A stretch of DNA of 39,633 nt from a virus: IMG/VR virus record IMGVR_UViG_3300044796_000081, positions 1 through 39,633 of that record; one strand, written 5' to 3'. The notes beneath the pieces were generated by a model. It ran no database searches, was not told the origin of the DNA, and saw only the letters and a program-made list of their open reading frames with translations. Every line of letters starts with the position of its first letter. Position 1 is the stretch's first letter. The position numbers and the translations under genes are program-made. Shown here piece by piece: positions 2,779 to 38,391 of the stretch.

Positions 2779-3324
2779 ATGCTCGAACAATGGAAGCCAG
2801 TCGTCGGTTACGAAGACTGCTACTCGATTTCAGACCAAGGTCACTTAGCCCGGACCTCGACCTATGGCGACAACGCAAAGCCGTGTTGGAAACTCAGATC
2901 GCCGGCCCTCAAGAATGGCTATCGCAGCTATCACATGTGCAAGAACGGCGTTCGAAAATACCGCCTAGCCCACATCATGGTCTGGGAAGCCTTCAAAGGG
3001 CCGATCCCTGCGGGCCTTGACGTAAACCACGAAAACGGTGACCGCGACGATCCATCGCTTGAGAACCTTAATCTTCTCACTCGATCGGAGAATTGCGCTC
3101 ACTCGTTTCGCGTCTTGGGCCGCAAGAATTTCAATGTAACTCAGCGCGGGTCAAAGCATGGCCTCGCCAAGCTCACTGAAACCGACATTCCAACCATCTT
3201 TGCTCTGTCTGCCGAAGGACACACCCAAACGCAGATTGCGAAAACGTTTGGCGTTTCCGGAGTCGCTATTGGGCATGTTCTTCGCCGTAAAACATGGCGC
3301 CATGTTGAGGTGACGCCAGTATAG
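2779..3324 (+). CDS. free-standing NUMOD4/HNH homing endonuclease with C-terminal HTH
   Basis: A protein of 181 residues on the strand opposite to the surrounding late genes. Domain order: NUMOD4 DNA-binding motif at about 3-26 (EQWKPVVGYEDCYSISDQGH); HNH nuclease core with H65 in LAHIMVWEAF, V82-N83-H84 with the following EN, and SLENLNLLTRSEN; C-terminal helix-turn-helix at about 131-172 (KLTETDIPTIFAL, QIAKTFGVSGVAIGHVL). The start has GGAGG 8 nt upstream. It lies between the coat gene (5 nt from its end) and the decoration-like gene, the usual setting for a selfish endonuclease that cuts phages lacking it. Confidence 0.93.
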   Translation: MLEQWKPVVGYEDCYSISDQGHLARTSTYGDNAKPCWKLRSPALKNGYRSYHMCKNGVRKYRLAHIMVWEAFKGPIPAGLDVNHENGDRDDPSLENLNLLTRSENCAHSFRVLGRKNFNVTQRGSKHGLAKLTETDIPTIFALSAEGHTQTQIAKTFGVSGVAIGHVLRRKTWRHVEVTPV

Positions 3325-3329
3325 TAGTG

Positions 3330-4490
3330 TTACGCGTCGGCGACGGCGGCTTCAAAAAGTGTAAATATTCCCCACTCACGTAGGTTTCCGGCCGCGGTCT
3401 TCTTGAACATCTTGGAGATGCCGTAGGCCATCTCGATGCCGGCGCCGCGGATGAAGCCGTAGTCGTCTTCTTTCCGGAAGCGCGGGATGGGCATCTGGCC
3501 CCACGCCCACGCCGCGGCGGACTGGCCGCACATGAACGCAGGCGAAACCCTGGTCGTCCCGCTGGCGCCGGCGGTCAGATAGGTCGTCGGCAGACGCAGC
3601 GAGAGTTCCGGGATTTCACGGATGATCACGCCGTTGTAGAGCAGGTCGCCGTCGACGAAGATCGGGTTCTTGAGATAACCCTGCTGCTCCCTCGCGCGGC
3701 TGTTCTGGTTCGCCGTCTTGATGTCGGTGTCGTTGCCCGCATCGCGGAACTGCTCCTGGCCGACGAACAGGACGAACCATTCCGTGCCGTTCTCCTTGAG
3801 TTTGAACGGGCGAATGCGCGGATTGGCGACCTTGGCCTGGCGCTTGGCCCGCATGATCAGCGCGCCGGACATCGTCATCGCGGTCGTGATGTTGGTCATC
3901 GAGGCCGAGAAGTTGCCTGCCGACAGGTTGGCCGTGTTTGAGTTGCCGATCAAGATGCGGTCGGCGTTGTCCGTGATCCAGGTGTTACGCTGGGCCGCGG
4001 TGGCCGAGTCGAACAGGATGCCGTTGACGCGCTGGCCGGCCGAACTGCCGAGACCGGCGGGCGCCGATTCGCTCGGGAGTGCGTAGAACGCGTCGCAGAT
4101 CTCGTCACGCTGGAGTTCTTTGCCCCAGTCGGCGAGCGCGGGCTTAGCCTCGGCGAACAGGTCGATCGACGACTTGTGCTCGTCCGAGTTCTTGATCGCC
4201 ACGGCCTTACGAGCCCAGTCAATCCAGGCGCGCATACCGTAGTTGTCGATCGCCTCTTCGTTGCCGACCAGAGGTCCGGAGCCGATCGCGCCGCCATTGA
4301 GACGGTCGCGAATCGGGACGTTGACCTGCTCGCCGCCGTTCTTGCCTTCGAGATCGGCATAGACGCGGATGATCGAATTGATGTCAGCGCCCATGTACGG
4401 CGAGAACAGGTTCTCGCGCACATACTCGCGGATGATATCCTTGCGGAATTTGATAAGTTTGTTGTTGTCTTGCGGGATCGTAATGGACAT
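3330..4490 (-). CDS. major capsid protein (N4-gp56 / DUF4043-like)
   Basis: A protein of 386 residues directly downstream of the scaffold gene. Family-like segments are VYADLEGKNGGEQVNVPIRD, RLNGGAIGSGPLVGNEEAID, NYGMRAWIDWARKAVAIKN and a late WFVLFVGQEQFRD. These match the style of the N4-gp56/DUF4043 capsid family, an HK97-fold group, more than the P22 gp5 coat. The start MSITIPQDNNKLIKF has no competing start. The window thus pairs a P22-like portal and tail adaptors with a different coat type. An HNH gene lies just past its end. Confidence 0.85.
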   Translation of the reverse strand: MSITIPQDNNKLIKFRKDIIREYVRENLFSPYMGADINSIIRVYADLEGKNGGEQVNVPIRDRLNGGAIGSGPLVGNEEAIDNYGMRAWIDWARKAVAIKNSDEHKSSIDLFAEAKPALADWGKELQRDEICDAFYALPSESAPAGLGSSAGQRVNGILFDSATAAQRNTWITDNADRILIGNSNTANLSAGNFSASMTNITTAMTMSGALIMRAKRQAKVANPRIRPFKLKENGTEWFVLFVGQEQFRDAGNDTDIKTANQNSRAREQQGYLKNPIFVDGDLLYNGVIIREIPELSLRLPTTYLTAGASGTTRVSPAFMCGQSAAAWAWGQMPIPRFRKEDDYGFIRGAGIEMAYGISKMFKKTAAGNLREWGIFTLFEAAVADA

Positions 4491-4551: not shown

Positions 4552-5613
4552 TCATGCTGATTTGAACACCGAGTCAAAGATCGCAGCGTTGGAATCGTCT
4601 CGATCCGCGCCGTCCGATCTCAAGTGATTGCCTCCCGACGCTCGGTTGAGCGATGCGGGAAGGCGAGTTAGATTACGAGGCCTTCCTTCGTCCCCAGTCG
4701 CCGCTTCCTCACGCAAACTTTCGAGAAGCTGCTTGCGGAATTCAGGATCGGAGGCGAGAGCTTTGCGGGTATCCTCGACGATCTTGGCTTTGTAGGCCGA
4801 AGGATCGTCGCCAACCTCGCGGAGAGCCTCGTTGCGTTTGTTCCATTGGACAAGGGCTTCGCCGGGGTTCGGCGATTTCCACATCCGCTGAACAAGTTCT
4901 TTGTTCTCCTGAACGTTGGGGTCAAGTTTCGTGACGGTTTCAAACGCCTTCGTAAACGCGTCACCATGTTTCTGATGGGCCAGATTAAGACTGAACTCGA
5001 CGCGTTGCTGATCCATTTGCGAGCGCATTTGCTCAATCTGAGCCTTAGGCGCGTTGGCGACATAGTCGGCGAACGCTTTGGGATCTTCAAAGAGATCAGG
5101 AAGACCAGCGGTCTTCTCGTCAGCCTTAGGCGGCGTGACGATCGGCTGCTGTTTGTTGAGCGCGGCTAGAACGCCATCAAACCGCGCGGTGAGCGCGTCG
5201 ATGTCTTTCTTGCGGGCAACTTCGGCCTCGGCGATCTTGCCTTTGGCTTCGGCCAGTGCGGCTTCCGCCGCCTGCGCGCGCTTCGTTTCCTCTCTCAGAC
5301 GACCGGCCGGAACGCGGCCTTTGGGCTCGTCCGCCTTGGCTTCGGCTTCGGCCTTTGCCGCCGCAGCCTCTTCCTCGGCTTTTTTGCCCTCGTCGCCTTC
5401 CTTGGCTTCGATCTCTTCGCCAGTTTCCTCGGCTTCGGGTTCCTCGTCCTCGTCGGGCTCGATTTGCCCTTCAAGACCGGTTCCCATTTCCTCAAGCGAT
5501 CGGTCTCCGGTCTCGTCTAGGACCGGCTCATCGTTGCCGAACGCCTCGCCGAAAATCTCACGATCCGTTGCCCTCATTGCTGCTTTGATGATGTCGTTTT
5601 CGCTGTTCGCCAT
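4552..5613 (-). CDS. scaffold-like protein
   Basis: A protein of 353 residues starting MANSENDIIKAAMRATDREI, with GAGAGAAC upstream. The ORF can be extended upstream to 5679 but that part looks non-coding. Residues about 45-120 are extremely acidic and Glu/Ala/Lys-rich (EDEEPEAEETGEEIEAKEGD), then a long helical region rich in Ala and Glu with coiled-coil character to about residue 170. The C-terminal part is helical and ends NAAIFDSVFKSA. Composition, length and position immediately upstream of the coat gene fit an internal scaffolding protein. No sequence signature is decisive. Confidence 0.8.
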   Translation of the reverse strand: MANSENDIIKAAMRATDREIFGEAFGNDEPVLDETGDRSLEEMGTGLEGQIEPDEDEEPEAEETGEEIEAKEGDEGKKAEEEAAAAKAEAEAKADEPKGRVPAGRLREETKRAQAAEAALAEAKGKIAEAEVARKKDIDALTARFDGVLAALNKQQPIVTPPKADEKTAGLPDLFEDPKAFADYVANAPKAQIEQMRSQMDQQRVEFSLNLAHQKHGDAFTKAFETVTKLDPNVQENKELVQRMWKSPNPGEALVQWNKRNEALREVGDDPSAYKAKIVEDTRKALASDPEFRKQLLESLREEAATGDEGRPRNLTRLPASLNRASGGNHLRSDGADRDDSNAAIFDSVFKSA

Positions 5614-5763: not shown

Positions 5764-6087
5764 TTATTGCATCGCTTTGAGACGACGCTCTAGGGCTTCG
5801 GCCGGCGAGGCCGCGAGATCGACATCAGACGATCCCTGGCCCGTCATGCCGAGCGCCTTGTCGCAGGCTTCGCGAAGACTCTTGATCGCTGCTGGCGAGC
5901 CGCGCAGATGAGCTACGCAGGCACCGTCCGCGACGACCTGACCATCGTTCATAGGCGTCAATGACATGACCGAGAGGACAATGGCCACGACCCCGTTGGA
6001 CTGCCCTAGCGCCGGCGCAGCATCGAAATAGATTACAGGCGCTGAGTTGGCGTTCTTCAACGCAGGGCGCGCAGGCTTGTCGGTCAT
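5764..6087 (-). CDS. conserved proteobacterial/phage hypothetical protein
   Basis: A protein of 107 residues. The N-terminal block LKNANSAPVIYFDAAPALGQ and the AHLRGSPAAIKSLREACDKAL helix resemble small alphaproteobacterial proteins of unknown role, somewhat like DUF3467 proteins. The start overlaps the stop of a 30-codon ORF as ATGA. It lies between the glycosidase cassette and the scaffold gene. No function is proposed. Confidence 0.7.
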   Translation of the reverse strand: MTDKPARPALKNANSAPVIYFDAAPALGQSNGVVAIVLSVMSLTPMNDGQVVADGACVAHLRGSPAAIKSLREACDKALGMTGQGSSDVDLAASPAEALERRLKAMQ

Positions 6088-6176
6088 GCGTTCATTGCCT
6101 CATCGATAAGTGTCGCTCTCTCGCACATCTCTAGGAAGACTGCGAGGGAGAGAAGCCAGAGGGTGGCGAAGGTCAT
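6084..6176 (-). CDS. mini-ORF, 30 residues, hydrophobic N-terminus
   Basis: The start ATG at 6176 overlaps the GH5 stop as ATGA, and its stop overlaps the next gene's start as ATGA, so it is tightly embedded in the operon. The N-terminus MTFATLWLLSLAVFLEM is hydrophobic. Its first 11 residues are almost identical to those of the mini-ORF at 7938-8006, because both lie in a 36-bp direct repeat. It may be a real tiny membrane peptide or a coupling sequence. No ribosome site of its own is evident. Confidence 0.45.
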   Translation of the reverse strand: MTFATLWLLSLAVFLEMCERATLIDEAMNA

Positions 6177-6179
6177 GGG
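6144..6179. repeat. 36-bp direct repeat, copy 1 (3' side of the GH5 gene)
   Basis: Begins gagggagagaagccagaggg and matches 7974-8009 at 35 of 36 positions; the single difference is a/g in 'ggcga[a/g]ggtcatggg'. It overlaps the GH5 stop codon and the start of the 30-residue mini-ORF. Confidence 0.95.
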
Positions 6180-7936
6180 ACAGCCAGCATTTGCGTCAGG
6201 CGCAGATCGTCTACTTGGATGACATCGCCGCTACCGACCCCAGCGCCGGTCGCATTGGCGCTCATGACAATCGTCGAGCCAGTCGTCGATAAAATCGTCG
6301 TGCCGCCGGGGATTACCGTTGGCGTCGTAATGTCGCGGATCGTTGAACCTGCACTGAAGTTCTGCACCTTAGACGGAACGGCCGCAAAGTGCAGCGTGGC
6401 ATTGCCGGATGCCGTCGTTCCGTTGGTCGTGGCGGAAACCGGCGCGATGTTGAGGCTGTTGGCTGACTGCACTCCGTTAGAACCGTAGAACCATATGGGG
6501 GCAGTGACGCGAGGCGACTTGAGTTGCTGGTAGAACGCCCGCGAAAGAACAAGCCACTGGTCGTTGCTGTCGGTCGTGTTGTTGGGGATGCCGAACTCGC
6601 CATTGTAGCACGCCGCAGTGACTGAAGCGCACCACGCAATGAACGGTGCGAAGCCTTGCGCCCCGTTGTTCGTGTTGATGCTGTAGGACGAATAAGTGCC
6701 TGAAAATACACCGCCTCCGCCGCCGCTGGTGTAGACGCCATCAGGATAATAGTGGGCGTCGAAAACAAGCGGCCCGCCCGTCAGCGTCGCCATCTCCCAG
6801 TTGATCCACGGCCACATGTAGGAGGGACTGGCGGCAATGCCATCAACATAGATTGGCGTTGCTCTATCGTAGGATCGGATTGCCGTGATAGCTCCCTGTA
6901 GCCATGGCAATAGAGGATTTGGCTGGTAGGTTGTCGAAGACGATCCTAGTTCTAGTTGCGCGTCAGCGATCTGAACCGTGCTGCCCGCGCCTTCATTCAA
7001 TTGCAACTGCATCTGAACCGAGCCGGCAGTCGGCGTATAGGTGTATGAAAATCGTTGCCACGATGTCGTACAAGTGTGTGATGGCCCAGACGATCCGAAT
7101 TCAACCTCGAAGTTCGCGTCGCTTCCGGCGGTTACCTTGCAATATGCGCTGAACGTATACGGCACATGCGCAAGAGTGACGTACTGCGCAACAGAGCCAT
7201 ATCCGGAGCCACTCGTCAGCGACCATGCCGGTCCGTAACCCGCGCCAAGAGGATTCGTCCCGGCGGCGAGTTGCGTGACAACCGCGCTGTTCGTCACGCT
7301 CCACGGCTGCGCGCCGATTGTGTCACCCAAACCATTCGGCCCAAACATCAAGTTGGTCGGCGCGTACATCGTGTTCGTGCCGGGGACGCTGGACGCTGGT
7401 TCGTTCATCAGGCCATAGCCGATCACGCCGGGCGTCCCGACGAGTGCCTGCGCAATGTCGCCCCACAGCGTGTTGAAGTTCGCCTGCGTGAGCGTCCCGT
7501 CGCCCATGTAATTGACGCCGGTCCCGGGTCCGCCAGCGTTGCCAGCGTAGCCGCAAACCGTCGCTATCCACGACGAGTGCTGACAGTAGTAGCTGAAATT
7601 GTGAATCTCAACAATCGTGCTGATGCCATAGGACCAGGCGGTTGCAATCGCCGTCTGCACGCTGCTGAGGTAGGTCGCGTCTAGCGAGCCGCCGAGCGTG
7701 GTCTCGAGGCTTTCCCAGGCGATCGGTAGGCGGACATAGGTCACGCCACGCGCCGCAAGGTAGGCAAAGTCGGTCCCGGTCGGGAAGGTTTGGCCGTTCC
7801 AGGGTGAAAACTCCGGCCCCGATACGTTGACACCGAAGGCGACAAGGGCGCGGCCATGCCAGAATGCGTTTGCGGCGAGCGGCGCAGCGAGCAAAGCTAC
7901 CGCGGCGAATACTGCTGTGAGAGATTTGATTTTCAT
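6173..7936 (-). CDS. secreted GH5-family glycoside hydrolase with inserted jelly-roll domain
   Basis: A protein of 587 residues with GGAGG 6 nt before the ATG. Residues 1-24 are a Sec signal peptide ending AANA|FW. GH5 (cellulase-like TIM barrel) landmarks are all present: R69 in YVRLPIAWE, H112-N113 in VEIHNFSYY, N178-E179 in GYGLMNEP (acid/base), H395-Y396 in VFDAHYYPD, nucleophile E447 in CYNGEFGIP, and W482 in PIWFYGS. Between the acid/base strand and the His-Tyr strand, residues about 212-341 form an inserted beta-sandwich typical of phage fibre or carbohydrate-binding modules (PYTFSAYCKVTAG ... IADAQLELGSSSTTYQP). Residues from about 500 are an extra beta-rich tail. It would cleave a beta-linked polysaccharide outside the cytoplasm or on the virion; the substrate is unknown. 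Confidence 0.9.
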   Translation of the reverse strand: MKIKSLTAVFAAVALLAAPLAANAFWHGRALVAFGVNVSGPEFSPWNGQTFPTGTDFAYLAARGVTYVRLPIAWESLETTLGGSLDATYLSSVQTAIATAWSYGISTIVEIHNFSYYCQHSSWIATVCGYAGNAGGPGTGVNYMGDGTLTQANFNTLWGDIAQALVGTPGVIGYGLMNEPASSVPGTNTMYAPTNLMFGPNGLGDTIGAQPWSVTNSAVVTQLAAGTNPLGAGYGPAWSLTSGSGYGSVAQYVTLAHVPYTFSAYCKVTAGSDANFEVEFGSSGPSHTCTTSWQRFSYTYTPTAGSVQMQLQLNEGAGSTVQIADAQLELGSSSTTYQPNPLLPWLQGAITAIRSYDRATPIYVDGIAASPSYMWPWINWEMATLTGGPLVFDAHYYPDGVYTSGGGGGVFSGTYSSYSINTNNGAQGFAPFIAWCASVTAACYNGEFGIPNNTTDSNDQWLVLSRAFYQQLKSPRVTAPIWFYGSNGVQSANSLNIAPVSATTNGTTASGNATLHFAAVPSKVQNFSAGSTIRDITTPTVIPGGTTILSTTGSTIVMSANATGAGVGSGDVIQVDDLRLTQMLAVP

Positions 7937-7937
7937 T

Positions 7938-8006
7938 TCACCCCTCCATCACCGGCGCGCGGTCGGCCGGGGAGAGGGAGAGAAGCCAGAGGGTGGCGAG
8001 GGTCAT
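7938..8006 (-). CDS. mini-ORF, 22 residues, partial duplicate of the 30-residue mini-ORF
   Basis: Starts MTLATLWLLSLSPADRAPV and stops 1 nt before the GH5 start codon. The first 11 residues duplicate those of the ORF at 6084-6176, differing only L/F. Upstream an 11-codon frame, MTTSGTYGFAP, ends in ATGA overlap with this start and looks like the remnant 3' end of another gene. It is probably a by-product of a recombination that installed the GH5 cassette. Confidence 0.35.
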   Translation of the reverse strand: MTLATLWLLSLSPADRAPVMEG

Positions 8007-8009
8007 GGG
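7974..8009. repeat. 36-bp direct repeat, copy 2 (5' side of the GH5 gene)
   Basis: Pairs with 6144-6179 (35 of 36 identical). The two copies bracket the GH5 gene almost exactly. See the matching finding. Confidence 0.95.
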
Positions 8010-8051
8010 GCGAAGCCATACGTTCCGGAGGTCGTCATTGTTCGTTATCCA

Positions 8052-9626
8052 TCACAGATTCGGAAGCGTCGCATTGGTGGCCGGGTTCCAACCTGTAAAC
8101 GCGTTGCCATCAAGGATTGTGTGACCGCCAAGATTGGTGAAGTTCTGGATTGGCCGCCATTGCCACGTTTCTCCCGCGACCGGAGCGCCACCCGATGGAT
8201 TGATGATAATGGTCATTTCCTGCGCGACCGAATTGTAGGTTACGTCTTGAACGGTCCCGGTTTTCGTACCGTCGTTCTTCTGGATGATGGTCCCGGTCCC
8301 AAGTCGGCGGTACACATCATTTGGCGCTGTATCTGTCCAAGACGTTTGCGAATATACGATATTATTTCCGGACGCCCTGCCAACAACTACAGACAAAATG
8401 TTATCTAGCGATTCTATATGAGACCACGTCCCGCCAACAGAATTGTTCAATGTAAGATTTTTCACGGTATAGGGGCTTACAGGCAGCTGCGCTGGCTGCG
8501 GCCAAATGCTGCCATTAATTGAGTTGTATGATATGGATGTGTTCTCTATCGTTAGCATCTTGGGGCATACGGAAATTGACCCGCTCACTGTCACCCCATT
8601 TATTACAAGATTGTCCGCCTCGTAGGCTCCGGCAATACCGCCTCCGCTAGTTCCCCCGAATGCAGCCCCTCCCGTAAGGGTAATGTCCCCACACATTCTA
8701 TCTAGTTCCGTTCCGTTCATAAACGATCCGCCGTTTACCGTCATCTGACGATTTATCTCGGAATTTAGATAATAATCAGCTAAACAATTTGTAAGAACTA
8801 ACGTGTCACATGTGATATTAATGACGCCAGTCTCTGTGTGGTATGGATTATTAGCAAATCGAATATTTTTAAATTCAAGATATGATGGGTATGAATAATA
8901 TGAAGCATCCAATAATAGTGCTCTAGGGGCACCAGAGTTCAGTCCGGGTCCAATCGTGTCTGGCAGATCTGCCCATAAGCTATTATAACTGTTCTTAAGA
9001 GGGGCAGATAATCCTACCACATTGCCAGTGACCCCGGTAACAGTCTGCCATTCAAAATACCGCGCACCAGGAATGCCGCCATATGCATTTGTTTCATAGC
9101 CATACAATATAATTCTCTTACCAATCGAGAAATTACCTGCATCGCTGGGATTCGTTAGAGTAATTGATGTTGCTCCAACGGCTGCGGTGTTGAAAAGGAA
9201 CCCATTAGTCTGGGTAATCGTACCAGAATAGGTCGCTGTATTGGTGTAAAACGGGGTTCCAACCCACAGCGGGAGGGCGGTGTTATATGCGTTCGTTTGA
9301 TTAAGCAGTGACTGGACCGACGTTCTCGATACGGGATCGCCGATAATCGTCGCATTGTTGACACCGAGCAACCAACGGGGATCAGTGCTTCCGATCGTCC
9401 CCGGCGGCAGGTAGATTGTGACCGGCCCGTTCGCTGCAATGCAGTCCGCGGCTAAGGCAAACAATTGCGTCTTATAATCGACGCCTTGGACACCCGCGAC
9501 GCCGTAGTCAGTTGCGTGGAAAACTACCCCTAAGTTTTTGCCATGAGTCCAGGCAGCCGCAGGCTGTGCCGCCAGCCACGCGCCGACCGCAATACCTCCA
9601 AGCAATATCTTCCGGCGCGTCAGCAT
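8052..9626 (-). CDS. exported right-handed beta-helix (pectate-lyase-like) protein
   Basis: A protein of 524 residues. The N-terminus MLTRRKILLGGIAVGAWLAA carries a twin-arginine motif and a hydrophobic stretch ending PAAAW, a Tat-like signal. It then reads HATDYGVAGVQGVDYKTQLF and GPVTIYLPPGTI. This is the usual entry to the pectate-lyase-superfamily beta-helix of phage depolymerases and tailspikes, though the normal 'GDG..D' is replaced. Residues about 240-400 have regular short beta repeats (LEFKNIRFANN, TLVLTNCLADYY, NLVINGVTVSG, LTIENTSISYN). The gene is strikingly AT-rich for this window: 8761-8820 has only 16 G+C of 60. It overlaps the upstream gene by 7 nt. It probably binds or cleaves a polysaccharide; no catalytic residues can be assigned. 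Confidence 0.8.
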   Translation of the reverse strand: MLTRRKILLGGIAVGAWLAAQPAAAWTHGKNLGVVFHATDYGVAGVQGVDYKTQLFALAADCIAANGPVTIYLPPGTIGSTDPRWLLGVNNATIIGDPVSRTSVQSLLNQTNAYNTALPLWVGTPFYTNTATYSGTITQTNGFLFNTAAVGATSITLTNPSDAGNFSIGKRIILYGYETNAYGGIPGARYFEWQTVTGVTGNVVGLSAPLKNSYNSLWADLPDTIGPGLNSGAPRALLLDASYYSYPSYLEFKNIRFANNPYHTETGVINITCDTLVLTNCLADYYLNSEINRQMTVNGGSFMNGTELDRMCGDITLTGGAAFGGTSGGGIAGAYEADNLVINGVTVSGSISVCPKMLTIENTSISYNSINGSIWPQPAQLPVSPYTVKNLTLNNSVGGTWSHIESLDNILSVVVGRASGNNIVYSQTSWTDTAPNDVYRRLGTGTIIQKNDGTKTGTVQDVTYNSVAQEMTIIINPSGGAPVAGETWQWRPIQNFTNLGGHTILDGNAFTGWNPATNATLPNL

Positions 9627-10552
9627 GCGTTTGGAAGTCCCCAGAACACATATTGATTATGGCACATATTTCCCTGCACCGTTGTTGACGACGCCCCGGA
9701 CCAAACCCCAGCTTCTTCAATATAATATATGTCGGGGCTTCCATTATCTAAAAGCTGAATTGCCGATCCCCCCATATTATTTGAGCCGGAATTCAGCGAC
9801 GTAATCGCGCCGTCAACGCTAATGCCGCCGGCCGTCCCGAACACCCCCTGAAACGCGTGCCACGTACCTTCCGTCTGAGACGCGTTGGCCACCGTCCCGG
9901 CAAAAATTTGAATGAGCCCGGAGGTGTAGAAATTGAACTCGTTAGCCCCCGCATATAGTATGACCGTGCTATTATAAGTGGCGCCCGTACGAACCGCGAC
10001 CGCAGAGTATGTGAAAGGGCTAGTAGGCGGGCTCAACGTGTTGTTCACTGCTGTATAATATTGTGTTGACGCGGTTCTTTTTACGCAGTAATCACTAGCG
10101 TTTGGGCATCCATTTGATGCTCCCGGCACAACAAGAATTGCCTGATTAGCGAATGTTGATTGCGTCTCATCGCACGCTGCTGAATAGCAGTGCGTACTTC
10201 CGCTTTGGTCGTAAAATGTCTTAACAAGACAAAGGTTCGTGGAATTATTACAAGTTCCTAGAGATGTTATCTGCGCCGCATTTAAGACACCCGCGCTAGT
10301 GACGCTGATGTCAGCGCACGCCGCATCAGCGGGTGTGCAAAGGTTGATTGCCTTTCCCCCCGCGTTTGCATAGGCCGTATTATAGGCACGCACCCCCCAC
10401 CACATATAGGCGGATGCTATGTCCCCTGGACCAACATAAGCCGCTCCGGCTGCGATCGAAGCATTATAGTTCGAATCCCTCGACTGCCAGAACGCCTGCG
10501 CCGGCCAAGCGGCGACAATCGCGGCGAGAAGAAGCCAGCGAAGGGATTTCAC
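9620..10552 (-). CDS. exported GH54-like (arabinofuranosidase B-type) lectin-fold protein
   Basis: A protein of 310 residues from a GTG at 10552. This start overlaps the preceding stop as GTGA and has GGGGA 8 nt upstream; an ATG at 10567 is possible but lacks a ribosome site. MKSLRWLLLAAIVAAWPAQA is a signal peptide. Residues about 30-130 match the style of the GH54 catalytic beta-sandwich seen in phage fibres: ASAYMWWGVRAYNTAYANAG, ADISVTSAGVLNAAQITSL, then LCLVKTFYDQSGSTHCY. The C-terminal half looks like a laminin-G/concanavalin-like sandwich. Eleven cysteines suggest disulphides outside the cytoplasm. It lies in the same AT-rich block as the beta-helix gene. Confidence 0.75.
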   Translation of the reverse strand: MKSLRWLLLAAIVAAWPAQAFWQSRDSNYNASIAAGAAYVGPGDIASAYMWWGVRAYNTAYANAGGKAINLCTPADAACADISVTSAGVLNAAQITSLGTCNNSTNLCLVKTFYDQSGSTHCYSAACDETQSTFANQAILVVPGASNGCPNASDYCVKRTASTQYYTAVNNTLSPPTSPFTYSAVAVRTGATYNSTVILYAGANEFNFYTSGLIQIFAGTVANASQTEGTWHAFQGVFGTAGGISVDGAITSLNSGSNNMGGSAIQLLDNGSPDIYYIEEAGVWSGASSTTVQGNMCHNQYVFWGLPNAC

Positions 10553-11781
10553 AGCGAATATCCCCATGCCTTAACCGAAACAAGGCCACCAGCGCCGGGC
10601 GCACCGGAAACAACGGCGATGCTTGTGCTGACCGCGCTAGCTGGAATGCACGGCGTGAAGATTTGCTCGTCAACGCCAATACCGGACGCGAGCGGCGCGA
10701 CCCACAACTCCGAACTCATCGTCGCTGTGATGACGCCAGTCACCGTGTCGAGAACGGTCGTCGCCGCCGTCGCGTTAGCGCGGATCGAATAACCGCAGAT
10801 ATAGGTCGTGTGGCCGGAGACGTTAGTCAGGGTTGCTGTGGTTGCACCAGTGGTGCCGGTGGCCGATGCGGTAATCGGAACCGCTGTCGCCGGATACTGG
10901 CTCGTCAAGGAGCCGGAGATTGGGATTGCCTGACCGCCGCTGACGCCCTGCACAGTTACGATTGCACCGGTCGGGCTGCCAGCCGTTGCTGTGCCAGGAT
11001 TGAGGCCAACCACCAGCGTCTTGTCAGCGGCCACAGGAAGCGTCGAAGCCGCCTTGACCGTGGCGACGTTCGTCCCGGCCGAGTCAACAATGCCGACGCC
11101 GCCGATCGAGACGGTCGGGGCTTGGGTCGGGATTGCTGTTGTAATGTCCGCATGGAGCTGTTTCAAGCAAGGGTTGATGCCCGCCGTGCTGCCGCAACCG
11201 GCCGCATCGGCGACACCACCCTCTGGCGTACTCGTAGTGACATTAGTTCGCAGATTGCCGGCCGTGTCGGTCGAGAGCGGGTTGCTCTTTGCGGTCGTGT
11301 ATGTCGGCGCGCCAGTCGTTGTCGCCGTCAACGGCAGGTTGCCGACTTCACCTGCGGTTGTGCTGTTTTGGGCTAGAGCCAAATCGGCAATAGCGCCAGA
11401 AACAAACGCCCCGGAGATAGCCGTGACCGCACCGCCACCACCGCCACCGCCGCCGCCAGTACCATAAACCAGCGTATACGCGATCGTCGCTGGCCCTAAA
11501 ACCGCCAGGGCATAAACATGTGATGACGCATCGGCTTGGTTGAATGTGATTGGCGCGTTGGGCTGATTGGCATTTAAGCTCACGCCCCCCGCCGCAAGCG
11601 CGGGGAGAGAATCCGCCACCACAACATAGACGTTGCCGTTGATGGCTTGAACTGAGACGGGCGCTAGACCAAGGTCTGTGTACGCGCCCTCAGACAAGCC
11701 GACCTGCGCCGTATTGGCCGCGAACGCGTTAGCCCCGCCAAGCCACAGCAGAGCGGCACAGAGCGCAAGGATTCTCTTCAT
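10549..11781 (-). CDS. exported Gly/Thr/Ala-rich fibre-like structural protein
   Basis: A protein of 410 residues; the ATG at 11781 is 2 nt after the portal stop. MKRILALCAALLWLGGANAF is a signal peptide (AFA|AN). It reads VSVQAINGNVYVVVADSLPA and SHVYALAVLGPATIAYTLVY, a pattern of phage surface proteins. A run of nine glycines (about residues 108-116, encoded by a GGN repeat near 11430-11457) acts as a hinge. The C-terminal domain has YICGYSIRANATAATT, FTPCIPASAVST and the ending SGAPGAGGLVSVKAWGYSL. It is probably a head or tail fibre or adhesin-like protein. The larger frame open to 12405 is the portal read in another frame. Confidence 0.75.
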   Translation of the reverse strand: MKRILALCAALLWLGGANAFAANTAQVGLSEGAYTDLGLAPVSVQAINGNVYVVVADSLPALAAGGVSLNANQPNAPITFNQADASSHVYALAVLGPATIAYTLVYGTGGGGGGGGGAVTAISGAFVSGAIADLALAQNSTTAGEVGNLPLTATTTGAPTYTTAKSNPLSTDTAGNLRTNVTTSTPEGGVADAAGCGSTAGINPCLKQLHADITTAIPTQAPTVSIGGVGIVDSAGTNVATVKAASTLPVAADKTLVVGLNPGTATAGSPTGAIVTVQGVSGGQAIPISGSLTSQYPATAVPITASATGTTGATTATLTNVSGHTTYICGYSIRANATAATTVLDTVTGVITATMSSELWVAPLASGIGVDEQIFTPCIPASAVSTSIAVVSGAPGAGGLVSVKAWGYSL

Positions 11782-11783
11782 GG

Positions 11784-13736
11784 TCACATTCCCGGCATGG
11801 GCGGCGCGACGGGCTGTGCGCCTTGGGGATTGGGCTGGGCGGGCGGTTGTGGGTTCAGGAGCCCCATCGCCTCTTTCCAGAGTTGGGTCTGGAACGCGAT
11901 GGCCTGCTGCTGCGTCTCGTTTGCGACCTGGCCGGTCTCGACACTGGCCTTCTGAGCTTGAGCGTCGCTCTTGCGCGCGTTCGCCGCCGTCAGGGCGTTC
12001 TTGGCCGCAGCGCCCTCCATCTGGAGCTTCGCCGCCATGAGTTGCGGTGGACCCGGAGGCTTCGGCGCCATCATTTGCATGATCTTGTTCTTGATCTCGC
12101 GCGGGCCGGGCCACAGTTCCATGATGACCTGGAACGGAACCGTCCCTGGAGCGAGGCCCTTGACCAGGTCGAAAGCGTCTTGCCCGAGGCTGGCGGAGTC
12201 GGGGGCTTCCTCGAGGATGATGTCGACGTCCAGCGCGCCGAGCGCATTGACCGTCGCCGGGCGGCCGAACTGGTCGAGGGTAAGCCCGTTGAGTTGGACG
12301 AACGCGGCTTTCTGAGCATCGTTCTCGACCATGCGCAGCCAGCGCTCGGTTTTCCAATGCCGCTGCGCCGTTGCCCAGATAGCTCGATAGATTTGCAGTT
12401 TCCATTGTCGGATCGCGAGAACGAACGGGCCAAGCTCGGCCATGCCGGGCTGGCGCAGAAGCTCGATCGCCCGGCCGGACAGATTGTTGATCCCCTGCCC
12501 GGAGATCGCCGCCACGTTCAGGTTGGCGAACTGGTCGATCTCGTCCTTGGCCTCTTGGCTCATCGAAGTGAACGCGGCGAAGTCTTGCGTGCGGTCGTCA
12601 GGCGTGATGTTTAGGCCGGGGTTTTTCTCGACCACGCCGTCCGGCCTCGCCCACTCGATGCGGGCCTTCTCAACGTCGTCGACCGCCCCCTTCTCCATGA
12701 TGAGCTTGCGAGAATTGGCGACGTGCAGCGCCTTGGACTTCGACTGATTGAGCGAGTCCTGTGGACCCTTCAAGTTGCGGACGAACCCGTATCGATCGCC
12801 ATCATGGTCGACCGCGACGGAGAACATCTTGAACGAGGAAATCGTCTTGTTCTTTTCGTTGAAGAACGGCGAAATTCCTTCATCCAACAAGGTGTTGGCG
12901 ACGTAGAACGCCCAGCACCACTTGCCCCGGCGCTTGTACCAATGCTCGATCAGCCGGATGCTGCGCGTCGCGGCGTTGACCCACTTGACCTCGCGATCGG
13001 GGTTGCTCGTCAGGTCGGCGTCGCCCGAGGTCAGGCCCTTAAGCTCTTCCTCCTTGTCGGGGAACATCTGGATCGCTTCGTCAACGTCGATCCATTTCGA
13101 GATGCCCTGATAAAGAGCATCGCTAAAGTCGAGACGATACGACGTCGGATCGTAGAAATATTCGTCGCCGATGACCCACGGCAGAGCAATGTCCGGGTCG
13201 CTGTCCTTGCCGTTGCTTTGGTCGCCTTCGACCATCACCATCTGGACGCCGGCAATCCCATCGATGCACGATTGCAGCAGGCACCACGGATCAATGCCCT
13301 TCCAGTCGTTCTCGTCCAGGACGTAGCGGATGACCTGCGTCGCGATGTCGGCGCCGGCCTCGCTCTTGATATGCCGCGGCAGGGCCTTTGGATCTGACCG
13401 ACCGCGTTCGACCAAGCCGACGATGGCGTTGATCTTGCGCGCAATACGGTTCCAGGTCAGCGGCGGCTGGTGGCGCTTGCGCAGGATTTTAATCTGGTCG
13501 GCGGTCCAGTGCGCGCCGTGATAATAGCGGCGGGCCTCTTTCTGCTCTTCGATCTCATCCGTCTTTGAATACAGGTAGTCGAGGTATTGCTGTTGCAGCT
13601 TGCGGACGTCTAGGAATTGCGATTTCTCTTCGCCGCCAGATAAGTCCGGCTTTCGACGCACGGCTTGAGCGCGCGGGTCAACGGTCTGCGACCGAGCGGC
13701 GCCCGACGCAAGCAACTGGCCGGCGATGTCAACCAC
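11784..13736 (-). CDS. P22-like portal protein
   Basis: A protein of 650 residues from a GTG at 13736, overlapping the upstream gene by 8 nt. Portal features of the P22 gp1 family are visible: EARRYYHGAHWTADQIKILR and LTWNRIARKINAIVGL near the N-terminus; GIDPWCLLQSCIDGIAGVQM; the PWVIGDEYFYDPTSYRLDFSD segment; LIEHWYKRRGKWCWAFYV; and YGFVRNLKGPQDSLNQSKS in the middle. The C-terminal 100 residues are an Ala/Gln helix, comparable to the barrel of P22 portal, ending in a Pro-rich tail. The dodecameric portal forms the packaging vertex. Four exported-protein genes follow it in place of the usual scaffold/coat. Confidence 0.88.
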   Translation of the reverse strand: MVDIAGQLLASGAARSQTVDPRAQAVRRKPDLSGGEEKSQFLDVRKLQQQYLDYLYSKTDEIEEQKEARRYYHGAHWTADQIKILRKRHQPPLTWNRIARKINAIVGLVERGRSDPKALPRHIKSEAGADIATQVIRYVLDENDWKGIDPWCLLQSCIDGIAGVQMVMVEGDQSNGKDSDPDIALPWVIGDEYFYDPTSYRLDFSDALYQGISKWIDVDEAIQMFPDKEEELKGLTSGDADLTSNPDREVKWVNAATRSIRLIEHWYKRRGKWCWAFYVANTLLDEGISPFFNEKNKTISSFKMFSVAVDHDGDRYGFVRNLKGPQDSLNQSKSKALHVANSRKLIMEKGAVDDVEKARIEWARPDGVVEKNPGLNITPDDRTQDFAAFTSMSQEAKDEIDQFANLNVAAISGQGINNLSGRAIELLRQPGMAELGPFVLAIRQWKLQIYRAIWATAQRHWKTERWLRMVENDAQKAAFVQLNGLTLDQFGRPATVNALGALDVDIILEEAPDSASLGQDAFDLVKGLAPGTVPFQVIMELWPGPREIKNKIMQMMAPKPPGPPQLMAAKLQMEGAAAKNALTAANARKSDAQAQKASVETGQVANETQQQAIAFQTQLWKEAMGLLNPQPPAQPNPQGAQPVAPPMPGM

Positions 13737-14031: not shown

Positions 14032-15387
14032 TTAGATCCAGCCCTCACGAGCCGCAATTTTGTCAAACTGCTTCGACGAAATCTTGCCGGCGCGCATCGC
14101 TTCCTCGGCCGTGGCCTGCTCTTTCGGCACTGGCTTGTCAGTCTTTTCGCCAAGCGCTTTCTTGAGGTTTTCGTAAGCCTCATCGATGGCTTCAAGCGGC
14201 TTCTCAACCGAATAGCCATCAACCAAAGCCGCGACGCGCTTGCACTCCGCGATCGCTTCCTCGGCAGTGTTCCCGGTTGCAACCACGGCGCCGATCTCCG
14301 GCATTCCCGACCATTGCGGGATGACGTAGTACTCGCCGTCGATCACGGTGAAATTGCGCAGCTTGACGTTCTCTCGGATTTCTTCCGGGAACCGGACCTG
14401 CTGCCAGTTCGAGTCCGCCCAATCGGAAAGAAGCAGAACCTCAGCACCCCATTTGTGCGTATATTCTGGCTCGATGACGATGCCATCAGCGCCCCACCAG
14501 ATGACCTCGGCTAGGTTACCTATCATTTCCTGGTAAAGCTCGCTGGGCGGGCTCCCGGCCCGCGAACATGGGTCGATGAGGTACGCCTTGTCTTTGGTCT
14601 CCCTGATCTCGGTCGAGAGAAACCCGCGGTAGCCGACGCGCTTCAATTCGGGGGCGAGCTTCTCGTTGACATCACGCACGTTCGGCGGCAGTTGATTGTA
14701 CCGCATCGTGCGGCCGATATAGGCCTTGTCCTTGACCTCGACGCCGACGATGGCGCCGCGAGCAAACTGCCCGTCGATCGTAAACCCATCGTAGCCGATC
14801 TCGATCGCGTCGTTGATCCCCTCTTCGACGACAAACTCCATGATCTTTTTCTTGGCGCCGAGATTGTGTTCAAGCTCGTCAAGGCGGGGCTCGACCTCTT
14901 CATAGGTTGGAGCGGCAAATGTCTCCATGTCGCCGCGCGTGGCGCTGATCTTGACATATTGATCGTCGTTGGCCTTCAAGTGCCGGCGCAGCGCGTCTAA
15001 GCCGATGATCCGCTTGTACGGCCCGATGTCGATCCCGAGCCGCTTGCTGGTCTCCTTCGATTTTACGCGGTCAAGTTCCAACTCGGCTCCACCGGAGCGG
15101 CAACCCCAGACCCGATGCCCATGGCTGACGAGGTAATCCTGCATCGCGCCTTCGTAGACATCGGGGAAAACCCAGACGTCAACGTCGTCGATATGAGACC
15201 ACGGATCCTCGACGCGCTCGATGTTATCAATACCCTTGCCGATCATTAGGGCATTGGATTTTGGGTAGCCGTTCGTCCAAGGCGCGAAGTAAAGGACGCG
15301 GCCAAACTCTTTCGATAGACGGATGGCAATTTCTAGGAACAAGCCGTTGTCGACGACCATGGCCGTGCGCTTACGAAGATCAGACAT
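14032..15387 (-). CDS. PurD-like ATP-grasp ligase with C-terminal SHOCT-like motif
   Basis: A protein of 451 residues. The ATG at 15387 overlaps the previous stop by 1 nt with GAGG 5 nt upstream; a GTG one codon earlier is possible. It resembles the glycinamide ribonucleotide synthetase (PurD) class of ATP-grasp enzymes. An N-terminal Rossmann-like part (VWVFPDVYEGAMQDYLVSHG) is followed by GGAELELDRVKSKETSKRLG at the domain junction, a lysine strand in DDQYVKISATRGD, GFTIDGQFARGAIVGVEVKD, and a metal/ATP site STEIRETKDKAYLIDPCSR. The PurD-like C-terminal AVVATGNTAEEAIAECKR follows, then AMRAGKISSKQFDKI at the tail. ATP-grasp enzymes join a carboxylate to an amine or thiol through an acyl phosphate. 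The substrate is unknown and no purine-pathway neighbours are present. Confidence 0.75.
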   Translation of the reverse strand: MSDLRKRTAMVVDNGLFLEIAIRLSKEFGRVLYFAPWTNGYPKSNALMIGKGIDNIERVEDPWSHIDDVDVWVFPDVYEGAMQDYLVSHGHRVWGCRSGGAELELDRVKSKETSKRLGIDIGPYKRIIGLDALRRHLKANDDQYVKISATRGDMETFAAPTYEEVEPRLDELEHNLGAKKKIMEFVVEEGINDAIEIGYDGFTIDGQFARGAIVGVEVKDKAYIGRTMRYNQLPPNVRDVNEKLAPELKRVGYRGFLSTEIRETKDKAYLIDPCSRAGSPPSELYQEMIGNLAEVIWWGADGIVIEPEYTHKWGAEVLLLSDWADSNWQQVRFPEEIRENVKLRNFTVIDGEYYVIPQWSGMPEIGAVVATGNTAEEAIAECKRVAALVDGYSVEKPLEAIDEAYENLKKALGEKTDKPVPKEQATAEEAMRAGKISSKQFDKIAAREGWI

Positions 15388-15776
15388 CACAGCCTCAGCG
15401 TCGTCGTTCCGCTCATGTCGTCAAGGCTAAGCGAAAAACGCTTAATCGGAGAGATGAGCTGAGTGGCGTCGAATTTTCGACAGGAACAGATGAAGAGATA
15501 AGCGCCGTCGTGATCTGGCCAAGTATCGGCGACAAGGAAGGATTCTGTTATGGGTTGCAGAATCGTTTTTCCAAACCCTCCCTTACCTTCGACCGGATAA
15601 GACCAAACCGCTGGATTGCCTGCTGGAGACATGTCCATCGCTTCGGCACATGCGACTAGAAACAGCCGCCAGTCACCATCACTTAGCCGGCCACGCAGCG
15701 TGAACGCCTGCGAATACATCCTTTTTCCAAGGGTGATTTCATCGTGAGAAGGGGCGATCTCCGCCAGGTCGTCCAC
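15387..15776 (-). CDS. hypothetical protein upstream of the ATP-grasp gene
   Basis: A protein of 129 residues from a GTG at 15776, preceded by GGAGG with 8 nt spacing. It appears to be a mixed alpha/beta fold (YSQAFTLRGRLSDGDWRLFL, AYLFICSCRKFDATQLISP). No family was recognised. It is coupled to the ATP-grasp gene by a TGATG overlap, so a functional link is plausible but unproven. Confidence 0.7.
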   Translation of the reverse strand: MDDLAEIAPSHDEITLGKRMYSQAFTLRGRLSDGDWRLFLVACAEAMDMSPAGNPAVWSYPVEGKGGFGKTILQPITESFLVADTWPDHDGAYLFICSCRKFDATQLISPIKRFSLSLDDMSGTTTLRL

Positions 15777-22103: not shown

Positions 22104-22128
22104 GGCCCGGCGAAAGCTGGGCCTTTTT
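22104..22128 (+). terminator. rho-independent terminator with GAAA tetraloop
   Basis: GGCCC (22104-22108) pairs with GGGCC (22119-22123); a G-T pair and an inner GC/GC step close a GAAA (GNRA) tetraloop; five T follow (22124-22128). It separates the rightward small genes from the convergent methyltransferase operon. Confidence 0.85.
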
Positions 22129-22805
22129 CATGGGCGCAGCGCCAGCCATTGCCGGGCGACCCATTTGGCATACGCCGGCGGGATCGATTCCGACAACTCC
22201 CCCAGCGCCATCCAATCGATTCCAAGGGCCTCAGACGCCGCGGCCTTGTGGCCGCCCTGCCAAACATCCCTCGTTCCCCTTCCACCGACCGAGGCCGCCC
22301 GCCGGCGCGCGTGGCCGCCGTAAATCCCGATGACCGGACGGCTGTCATGTCGGCACGCAGGCGCCGCGACCGGGAAGCTGCATTCGAACGCCCGATGGCG
22401 CTGCAGTTGGCAACCCTGGGCGCCGAGGCCAAACATGGACCCACAGAGAATGACCGGATCGATCATATCCCATGCCGCATCTTCGACATTCTCAATGCAC
22501 CAGGGAACGCCGCTCGCTTGCAGCAGTGTGCGAACCTGGCCGATCAGCCGCGGCGCGCCGCGTGCGCCCGGCGCGTGCCGCATGGACGTGTAGCCCTGAC
22601 ATGGCGGACTTGCCCAAATGAAATCGTAGGCGCGGAGATCGAGTTTCAGAATTTCCAGCGCGTCGGCCTGGATGAACGTATCGCCGACATACCGCCCCTG
22701 CCTCACCAAGTCGACGCCATCGACACGAGCGAACCCGGCCTGCTGCAGACCGCGCGTGGCCCCGCCGGCACCACAGAAACAATCGAGGGCACGCAGACCG
22801 CTCAT
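22128..22805 (-). CDS. DNA cytosine-5 methyltransferase
   Basis: A protein of 225 residues from the ATG at 22805, with GGTAGGGGA upstream; the longer frame to 22892 is unsupported. C5-methyltransferase motifs: I, LDCFCGAGGATRGLQQAGF (about 7-25); IV, SPPCQG with catalytic C69; VI, IENV with E105; VIII, QLQRHRAFE; X, SIPPAYAKWVARQWL near the end. It transfers a methyl group from S-adenosylmethionine to cytosine C5. It is short for the family, typical of phage versions, with a small target-recognition region. No cognate restriction enzyme is present, so it probably protects phage DNA. Confidence 0.93.
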   Translation of the reverse strand: MSGLRALDCFCGAGGATRGLQQAGFARVDGVDLVRQGRYVGDTFIQADALEILKLDLRAYDFIWASPPCQGYTSMRHAPGARGAPRLIGQVRTLLQASGVPWCIENVEDAAWDMIDPVILCGSMFGLGAQGCQLQRHRAFECSFPVAAPACRHDSRPVIGIYGGHARRRAASVGGRGTRDVWQGGHKAAASEALGIDWMALGELSESIPPAYAKWVARQWLALRP

Positions 22806-22858
22806 TCCCCTACCGCCACCGCGCGCACCAGGTCGAGAGAGACGATTAGGATTGGCAT
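22802..22858 (-). CDS. possible 18-residue leader ORF
   Basis: Reads MPILIVSLDLVRAVAVGE, with GAGG 8 nt upstream of the ATG. Its stop overlaps the C5-methyltransferase start as ATGA. It could couple translation of the methyltransferase. It is too short to judge further. Confidence 0.3.
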   Translation of the reverse strand: MPILIVSLDLVRAVAVGE

Positions 22859-22861
22859 TTT

Positions 22862-22969
22862 CTATCCCTCGATTGCTTCCATCTCTGGCCACGCCTCGTC
22901 GGGCGACGTATCCAACTCCAAAGTCCCTTGGTCAGATTTCGTTGCCGCCCCCGGTGCGGCCGTCTTCAT
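22862..22969 (-). CDS. possible small acidic protein (35 aa)
   Basis: Starts MKTAAPGAATKSDQGTLELD and overlaps the upstream methyltransferase stop as ATGA. The same frame continues upstream to 23053 through ELKPSYFRQAVKN. This frame would be joined to the methyltransferase if the G11 tract gained or lost bases. It may be an independent small gene or a C-terminal extension. Confidence 0.4.
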   Translation of the reverse strand: MKTAAPGAATKSDQGTLELDTSPDEAWPEMEAIEG

Positions 22970-25121: not shown

Positions 25122-25384
25122 GGTGTAGCGATCTCCGCCATCGCTGGCGCTCCGCCTAGATTGTCTCCGCCGACCGGAGCGAGCATCGGCTCCGACGGCT
25201 CCCCGTTCGGCTCAATGCGCAGGCCCGCCAGCTCGGCCGCGAGCACGCCGAACACCTCGCCGATCTCGCGACGATGGAGAAGATGGCCGAACCGAGCCAC
25301 GATCTCTTGCTGCGCCGCCGCGATGACCTCACGGCAGGCATCGACGCCGGCGTTATAGCTGGGCGCGTCGAATAGGCGGGTCAT
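25118..25384 (-). CDS. hypothetical protein (88 aa)
   Basis: The start ATG at 25384 overlaps the upstream methyltransferase stop as ATGA; the frame beyond to 25474 overlaps that gene and is rejected. A helical N-terminal two thirds (VDACREVIAAAQQEIVARFG, VFGVLAAELAGLRIE) and a Pro/Gly-rich tail. No family was recognised. Confidence 0.7.
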   Translation of the reverse strand: MTRLFDAPSYNAGVDACREVIAAAQQEIVARFGHLLHRREIGEVFGVLAAELAGLRIEPNGEPSEPMLAPVGGDNLGGAPAMAEIATP

Positions 25385-26136
25385 AGTGCAGACTCCAATA
25401 ATAGGGGCACGTCGTCGAGAATTCTTGCATTTGCAAGAGCGACATATTTTGGGTCTGCCTCGATTAGCGTACACTCATAGCCTACCAATTTGGCGGCGAT
25501 CGCAGTCGAACCAGAACCCCCGAACGGATCAATTACCGCCCCGCCGACCGGGCACGCGTACCGCAGCAGAGATTCCAGCAGAGCAATCGGTTTGGCGGTC
25601 GGATGGCCAACGCCCTTGCGATGTTCAGAGGGGCAATAAATGACGCTACGCTGCAGGCGCGGGCCTCCATCTTCGGATCGATAGAGCGTCTCGCCAGTGG
25701 CTCCTATCCATTGCGCCGGGCGCCCCTTCTTACGAACAGTGCGCGCCGTCGCATCATTTGTGAATTGTGGCTCTTTGAACACGTCGGCCCACTTGGCGTC
25801 GCTGGGATAGAAATGTGCAACTAGTTCATGGACGCGCCGGAATCGGTCGTTGAAAAGTCCGGTGCCGTTGTGCTTCTCCCAGACGACTTCGTGCGAAAGA
25901 TTCCAGCCGACAAACTCAGACGCCGTTTCCATGAAATAGCGCAGGCTGCCAAACACCCACATCGACCCAGCCGGCTTGAGCATCGGCCGGACAAGAGCCG
26001 GCCAACCCGGTACGCGCGTATCCCATCCGAGGCTCGTCTCACCATAAGGCGGGTCAACGATGGCGCAGTCGAAACTACCGGCAGGCAGCGTCGGCAGCAC
26101 GTCGCGGCAATCCCCCGCAAGAATGCGTGTGCTCAC
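25381..26136 (-). CDS. DNA methyltransferase, N6_N4-MTase family
   Basis: A protein of 251 residues from the GTG at 26136, which overlaps the upstream stop as GTGA and has GGGAG 8 nt upstream; the longer frame to 26193 is rejected. VDPPYGETSLGWD at 27-39 is the catalytic motif and DPFGGSGSTAIAAKL the SAM-binding motif, so it is a class-beta amino-methyltransferase. HPTAKPIALLESLLRYACPV precedes the latter as usual. It probably methylates adenine N6 (DPPY). It is the second amino-methyltransferase in this operon, with no restriction partner. Confidence 0.92.
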   Translation of the reverse strand: MSTRILAGDCRDVLPTLPAGSFDCAIVDPPYGETSLGWDTRVPGWPALVRPMLKPAGSMWVFGSLRYFMETASEFVGWNLSHEVVWEKHNGTGLFNDRFRRVHELVAHFYPSDAKWADVFKEPQFTNDATARTVRKKGRPAQWIGATGETLYRSEDGGPRLQRSVIYCPSEHRKGVGHPTAKPIALLESLLRYACPVGGAVIDPFGGSGSTAIAAKLVGYECTLIEADPKYVALANARILDDVPLLLESAL

Positions 26137-26381
26137 GCCGCCCACTCCCTCGGCTCGACGCCGAACGCCCGCAGCGCCATCATGGCCGCCCACGTCATCG
26201 GGAAATCCTTCGGGAAGCCGTTGACCAGATCGCTATGGACCGTGAACACGGGATCACCCTTGACCGTTTCGTCCAACTTCACCGCCTCCGCCCGGACGGA
26301 ATAGCCGCGCAGCGCCCAGTATTTCTCGACTGCTTTCGCGACCGCCTGTGCATCGGTCTGCGTTGCCAGAGCATATGCCAT
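26133..26381 (-). CDS. hypothetical protein (82 aa)
   Basis: The ATG follows GGGGG with good spacing. It contains AKAVEKYWALRGYSVRAEAV and VHSDLVNGFPKDF, an alpha/beta fold. No family was recognised. It is coupled to the methyltransferase by a GTGA overlap. Confidence 0.75.
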   Translation of the reverse strand: MAYALATQTDAQAVAKAVEKYWALRGYSVRAEAVKLDETVKGDPVFTVHSDLVNGFPKDFPMTWAAMMALRAFGVEPREWAA

Positions 26382-37947: not shown

Positions 37948-38391
37948 ATGAGCGAGATAACCGACCTCATGAACGGACCAGATTATGTTCCGCCTATCGA
38001 TCCCCGCGACGCCATTCTCTCCGCGATTCGTGAGAAGGAAGCGAGAGACGCCGCAAACATCGTTGTTGCCTCGAGTGCTCCCGGGGCCGGCGGCAATGTC
38101 ACTGTGGACACTTGGGGCTACAGCCAGACTGAGATTGCACCCAAAAGCAAGCCTGATTTGCAGGCTGATCTTGACGCCACGATCTCCGCCCTCCGCGCGG
38201 CGCTCGCAACGGCGCGTGAGGCGCTGAAGGAATGCGCTGACGATTTGGAGAGTGAAGTTGAGGCCCACTACCCGCGTCCGAATCCCTACCCGATGGAAAA
38301 GCGTAGGTATGACCGCGACATGGAACCAGTCCGCCACGCTCGTTCCGCCCTTGCCGCTATCGACGCGGCAGGGAAGCCCACACAAAAATAA
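37948..38391 (+). CDS. mosaic small protein containing a structural-protein C-terminal motif (147 aa)
   Basis: Residues about 1-35 are polar. Residues about 38-60 (NIVVASSAPGAGGNVTVDTW, then GYSQ) match the C-terminal end of the fibre-like protein at 10549-11781 (SGAPGAGGLVSVKAWGYSL), 15 of 23 aligned residues identical by eye. The rest is a helical part (DLQADLDATISALRAALATA) typical of small early phage proteins, ending at ARSALAAIDAAGK. It looks like a fusion of two unrelated pieces. It is the last gene of the rightward operon, before a hairpin. Confidence 0.7.
   Translation: MSEITDLMNGPDYVPPIDPRDAILSAIREKEARDAANIVVASSAPGAGGNVTVDTWGYSQTEIAPKSKPDLQADLDATISALRAALATAREALKECADDLESEVEAHYPRPNPYPMEKRRYDRDMEPVRHARSALAAIDAAGKPTQK

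Follow-up and report, generated by a model that had tools for sequence, protein, structure and literature searches.

This locus raises the question of why a tailed phage should carry, inside its head operon, a run of genes whose products carry predicted export signals, when the textbook view has tailed phages assembling in the cytoplasm. The window, i.e., the whole stretch of DNA analyzed here, is an entire IMG/VR virus record; at 39,633 bases it lacks terminal repeats and is incomplete, and the records of the clade to which it belongs are all metagenomic or draft. Its minus strand encodes a terminase, an ATP-grasp-like gene, the portal, a block of four genes, a 107-aa gene, the scaffold, the coat, a decoration-like gene and gp4/gp10-like genes (Table 1). 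The portal and coat profile matches, together with the order terL-portal-scaffold-coat that we observe in the window and in its relatives, mark it as a P22-like tailed phage, which resembles Salmonella phage P22 in its P22_portal protein, its Phage_capsid_3 coat, its gp4/gp10-like genes and its gene order. Unlike the window, P22 is not known to have a cassette separating portal from scaffold or a signal peptide (SP) on any virion protein. The hosts of the clade are probably soil Alphaproteobacteria (Rhizobiales); a genome scan for hosts returned three metagenome-assembled genomes (MAGs) only, two of them labeled Rhizobiales or Salinarimonadaceae. With respect to the remaining gene content, the ATP-grasp/RimK-like protein of about 450 aa (14032-15390, minus strand), which lies between terminase and portal, has homologues in 25 clade members and was not found in outgroup records, and three DNA-methyltransferase-like open reading frames (ORFs; 22128-22892, 22966-24954 and 25381-26193, minus strand) lie outside the virion operon.

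Table 1. Positions and supporting evidence for the window features discussed in the text
Feature	Position	Strand	Evidence and remarks
Putative capsid cement protein, 184 aa	2165..2719	-	Predicted Sec SP 2645-2719 (...GSAYA/LNVDQ, cleavage at slash); Cys pair C47/C65
Major capsid protein (coat)	3330..4490	-	PF13252 (Phage_capsid_3) 9.8e-36, phrog_334 1.5e-68; without SP
Scaffold protein	4552..5613	-	Family profile and synteny; without SP; downstream border of the slot
Conserved 107-aa protein	5764..6087	-	Without SP; delimits the variable slot at its scaffold end; 20 clade members have a homologue in this position
GH5 endoglucanase/mannanase-like enzyme, 587 aa	6173..7936	-	Predicted Sec SP 7865-7936 (...ANA/FWHG, cleavage at slash); PF00150 9.6e-24
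Beta-helix-like protein, 524 aa	8052..9626	-	Predicted Tat SP 9552-9626 (MLTRRKILLGG...AAA/WTHG, cleavage at slash)
LamG/GH54-like protein, 315 aa	9620..10567	-	Predicted Sec SP 10493-10567 (...AWPAQA/FWQSR, cleavage at slash)
Gly-rich fibre-like protein, 410 aa	10549..11781	-	Predicted Sec SP 11719-11781 (MKRILALCAALLWLGGANAFA)
Portal protein	11784..13736	-	PF16510 (P22_portal) 5.8e-96; without SP; upstream border of the slot

The earlier note had placed the four-gene block between portal and scaffold; its coordinates hold, and all four genes are on the minus strand. Tight gene overlaps tie the block to the portal, with the Gly-rich gene starting 2 nt past the portal stop codon and the gene for the LamG-like protein overlapping the preceding one; two window genes have a lower G+C (0.50-0.52). 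The Gly-rich protein ends in a jelly-roll domain (10552-10887) with an invariant Cys pair, for which a fold search returned a generic jelly roll, with no match at E <= 0.001 and weak matches that include the Bdellovibrio Bd2133 fibre tip and carbohydrate-binding modules (CBMs). The LamG-like protein has 10 Cys arranged as five close pairs. It had also been labeled GH54-like, a label that Pfam does not support, since we found neither the GH54/ArabFuran catalytic domain of an arabinofuranosidase nor any other Pfam family above the cut-off. The beta-helix-like protein matched no Pfam or PHROG family. The GH5 protein is a predicted hydrolase, its PF00150 domain retaining the acid/base and nucleophile Glu residues, with NEP and GEFG motifs in the translation and 6 Cys as three close pairs; its nearest PDB entry is the endoglucanase 4lx4 (1.5e-19), and we found no close relatives in viral contigs and only distantly related known phage proteins. 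In none of the four proteins did Pfam or PHROG searches recognize a tail-anchor or other virion-anchoring domain.

With our own rule-based predictor, which recovered 8/8 known E. coli SPs, five window proteins are SP-positive, four of them for Sec and one for Tat (MLTRRKILLGG), and all five show n-, h- and c-regions and an AxA-type site, with the twin Arg in the Tat case. This bears out the claim that all four block proteins, as well as a fifth encoded at 2165-2719, begin with clear Sec or Tat signals. The rest of the window gave only two weak alternative-start matches, so that the block (4/4 SP-positive) differs significantly from it (Fisher, P = 6e-5), and internal windows of slot proteins, used as a control, were positive in 0.45% of cases.

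The fifth protein is not part of the block. It had been described as decoration-like; beyond the SP, its identity can now be refined, since fold and gene order make it best read as a capsid cement protein. An AlphaFold (AF2) model of the mature chain (pLDDT 80) was matched by Foldseek in the PDB to the cement proteins of Pam1 (7eel_H, 1.2e-5) and GP4 (8h89_J, 7.9e-4), followed by those of KHP40 and KHP30, at modest TM-scores of 0.47 to 0.52. In fold, the mature chain resembles the Ig-like trimeric cement of cyanophages Pam1 and Pam5, Ralstonia phage GP4 and Helicobacter phages KHP30 and KHP40, and the cement trimers of GP4 lie on the outside of the capsid (PMC9698820). The gene is the single one directly 3' of the coat, with one homologue per record, and SP-less cement homologues in other phages (L127, L128 and L130) also lie directly after the coat. 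For both cement and tail fibre we observe one homologue per record and no cytoplasmic second copy, in records that are metagenomic or draft. Start codons that would allow a cytoplasmic isoform by dual translation start do not occur consistently close to the predicted cleavage site; a tblastn search for the fibre and the cement in cultured phages found none. An HNH-like ORF on the opposite strand (2779-3324, plus strand) is inserted between coat and cement in the window, and L120 has a homologue in the corresponding position.

A survey of SPs in homologues, which had been proposed as a check, made clear that the pattern characterizes an entire phage clade and not just this genome. Portal-based scans yielded about 90 related loci, plus complete or near-complete relatives, and in the portal tree the trait is held by a supported clade of 46 sequences (100/98). 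The slot between portal and scaffold is hypervariable among members, from about 100-190 nt to about 8.5 kb, and in the clade it is filled with 1 to 6 ORFs with predicted SPs, six of them consecutive in L042; even the close relatives L002 and L007, with portals 93% and 87% identical to that of the window, have other slot genes, which are again SP-positive. In outgroup phages the slot is empty or, with few exceptions, holds ORFs without SPs, among them fibre-like or enzyme ORFs. Counted over related sequences, which are not statistically independent, SPs are found in 65/100 clade slot ORFs of at least 100 aa versus 2/15 in the outgroup slot, in 24/27 clade cements versus 0/6, and in 7/12 clade tail fibres versus 0/4, compared with 3/307 for the 15 other conserved families of the clade, which are internal to the virion. 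When the start codon may be chosen freely, 34/278 non-structural genes are also SP-positive, as are 12% of shuffled N-termini. The SP-positive slot proteins include GH5, GDSL/SGNH, pectate-lyase-like and CBM domains, and the PHROGs matched by SP-positive proteins bear the names tail fiber, tail spike, virion structural and head decoration. From these sequence comparisons, the block is best explained as a cassette site, hypervariable within a P22-like clade, for proteins of the virion surface. The earlier note was right that its position is unlike a tailspike locus, yet two genomes with an empty slot (G013 and G014) have a similar battery of SP genes past the spike anchor, at the tail-fibre locus, and its N-terminal motifs resemble those of the slot proteins.

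Some of these motifs recur directly past the cleavage site. The W.HG type is seen, for example, at 7853-7864 and 9540-9551 of the window, and other classes are TPGG, TG.G and SAASTN. W.HG occurs in 7/83 mature N-termini, against about 0.005 expected, and is common to unrelated proteins; we speculate that the mature N-terminal motifs (W.HG, TPGG and TGAG) may be docking tags.

Tail genes show the trait as well. The fibre family of the clade is homologous to the Pam5 tail fiber gp16 (3e-63), and its SP is fused to the domain at the very start, SP-less relatives beginning MAGT.. and SP-positive ones continuing from the SP into AGT.., so that the processed fibre would equal the SP-less one. Furthermore, the N-terminus of the Pam5 tailspike corresponds in the clade to a separate SP-less gene of about 180 aa, and the gene that follows this anchor domain is SP-positive in 13/13 clade genomes, which looks like a spike divided between an anchor that stays in the cytoplasm and an exported working end. 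The gene order of the cultured relative Pam5 is otherwise like that of the clade, with annotated cement directly after coat and then adaptor, head completion, ejection proteins, tail fiber, receptor-binding protein (RBP) and tailspike, but in Pam5 the cement, tail fiber, RBP and tailspike all lack SPs, and the cement and several other proteins of the window's clade differ from their Pam5 counterparts by an SP and by added Cys pairs.

These cysteines provide a second line of evidence. Exported bacterial proteins favor even cysteine counts, a signature of disulfide-bonded exported proteins (PMC7678975). We observe even counts in 59/64 mature SP-positive slot proteins (P = 4.5e-13) and in 14/16 terminal fibres, with 25/51 SP-negative slot ORFs, 88/196 internal proteins and 104/202 non-structural proteins as controls. 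In the window, the mature Sec substrates have 4, 10, 6 and 2 Cys, all even and mostly in close pairs, and the Tat-dependent beta-helix protein has 5, an odd number that is expected because a Tat substrate folds in the cytoplasm. Within single families the two features covary: at least 2 Cys are present in 22/24 SP-positive cements versus 1/12 SP-negative ones (P = 1.4e-6), at several different pair positions, and the fibre Cys pair is present in 7/8 SP-positive versus 0/9 SP-negative fibres. The cysteine data support the predicted export independently of the SP calls, and the internal-window, family and parity controls reject chance as the explanation of the SP pattern. In two sister genomes (G009 and G018; L112 and L142) the cement has neither SP nor Cys and the tail fibre has both, which indicates that export is optional for each protein.

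We consider it probable, judging from these patterns, that phages of this clade export virion surface proteins, that DNA-filled heads form in the cytoplasm and that the surface set joins them at lysis. A DNA-filled head with a stump would be built in the cytoplasm, with the portal, scaffold, coat, head-completion, ejection and spike-anchor proteins, none of which has an SP, remaining on the cytoplasmic side. Cement, tail fibre, spike/fibre and glycan-active appendages would leave by cleavable Sec and in some cases Tat SPs, be processed, fold and gain disulfides in the periplasm, and wait there until the endolysin system opens the cell, whereupon the two pools would meet and the surface proteins attach to the virion, perhaps outside the cell. 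The exported set of the window would comprise the cement, the jelly-roll fibre, the LamG-like protein, the Tat-exported beta-helix protein and the GH5 enzyme, with a glycan as the presumed target. A little more guardedly, we lean toward the fuller picture of a two-compartment virion, exported by Sec and Tat together and joined at or after lysis, in which the slot acts as a cassette site with possible docking tags. Cement addition, according to the GP4 paper (PMC9698820), and tailspike addition, as in P22, are late, outer-surface steps. This makes late joining plausible, since such proteins could be moved to another compartment without harm to head assembly. Among the three alternatives offered by the earlier note, which find unequal support, the one that has virions decorated outside the cytoplasm fits best, given the SPs on the relatives' cement, Pam5-type fibre and tailspike-locus proteins and the unmarked internal virion proteins. 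Conversion of structural into secreted proteins is only partly right, in that cement and fibre both have homologues without SPs, with no change in the mature chain. The export of glycan-active enzymes before lysis is possible for the enzymes but leaves an exported capsid cement unexplained.

In the main rival, which we regard as unlikely, the glycan-active enzymes and adhesins of the slot would be secreted by the infected cell as effectors that act on capsule, cellulose or biofilm to loosen it, provide food for the host or prevent superinfection, and would never join the virion. The hydrolase and CBM domains among SP-positive proteins are what such effectors would look like, no virion anchor is recognized in the four window proteins, and a soil viral GH5 has been found to be an active endomannanase, from a class of genes usually called auxiliary (PMC6786970). 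The window's GH5 and LamG-like proteins could indeed be free secreted enzymes. Effectors of this type, however, do not account for SPs on the sole copy seen of the cement and of a Pam5-type tail fibre, for the virion PHROGs that SP-positive proteins match, for genes embedded and overlapping in the head operon, or for the SP-less fibre-like or enzyme ORFs in the outgroup slot.

Quite improbable is a reading in which the N-termini stay uncleaved, either as membrane tethers, with virions completed at the inner membrane, or as trimerization stalks inside the virion, and nothing is released into the periplasm. Hydrophobic N-terminal segments can in general act as anchors, and cleavage is a prediction, but AxA-type sites throughout, the Tat motifs, the even Cys parity and the Cys-pair covariation point to an oxidizing compartment, and the fibre chain after cleavage would equal the SP-less protein. 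Lysogenic conversion, by which some members would be temperate and express the cassette in the lysogen so as to change the host surface, is highly improbable: relatives do occur in bacterial MAGs, and a cargo site of high turnover and lower G+C resembles a moron locus, but the overlaps couple the cassette to portal translation and the trait is common to cement, fibre and tailspike-locus genes. An artefact of spurious start codons or false-positive SP calls is barely credible, the positives among freely started non-structural genes and shuffled N-termini standing against the excess in slot ORFs and cement over internal families and against a Cys parity and covariation that are independent of any hydropathy score.

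Returning to the exported surface set, other phage proteins known to depend on host Sec are the Sec-inserted coat proteins of inoviruses, SAR endolysins and Rz1 spanins, which function in membrane extrusion or lysis and not as icosahedral capsid cement or tail fibres. Our full-text literature searches found no report of SPs on tailed-phage virion proteins, an absence that is no proof, and no precedent for an assembly route with exported outer proteins in tailed phages. If true, export of the capsid cement and of tail fibres would be an exception to the rule of cytoplasmic assembly and offer a route to disulfide-stabilized virions. In addition, the gain or loss of an SP with matching gain or loss of a Cys pair in the same protein would provide a natural experiment on when phage proteins can move across a membrane.

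Similar genes have been described in soil viruses from a different angle. The carbohydrate-active enzyme (CAZyme) auxiliary genes of soil viruses, namely a GH5 endomannanase and a GH75 chitosanase, likewise place a GH5 in a soil phage contig; the papers on soil-phage GH5 and GH75 treat these genes as metabolic and contain 0 mentions of signal peptides, whereas the GH5 of the window is one of an exported surface-type set in a head operon. Part of the soil auxiliary CAZymes would, if our reading is true, be reclassified as virion or virion-associated proteins. Homologues of other slot proteins also occur without SPs, as in Caulobacter phage Cr30, in which a domain homologous to the SAASTN type adjoins a beta-1,4-xylanase, and in the rhizobial phages RHph_Y25 and Lo5R7ANS, which have a homologous SGNH protein (phrog_8480).

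The jelly-roll C-domain of the Gly-rich fibre is also found elsewhere. In the outgroup members L076, L080, L083 and G015, SP-positive proteins of about 150 aa encoded after terL consist of this C-domain, invariant Cys pair included; since it carries an SP even in the outgroup, this domain family may have been exported from the start. Within the window, a 147-aa ORF (37948-38391, plus strand) includes 25 aa (AANIVVASSAPGAGGNVTVDTWGYS) with homology to the C-terminal end of the Gly-rich fibre-like protein (profile E = 3.9e-5), which looks like a recombination remnant.
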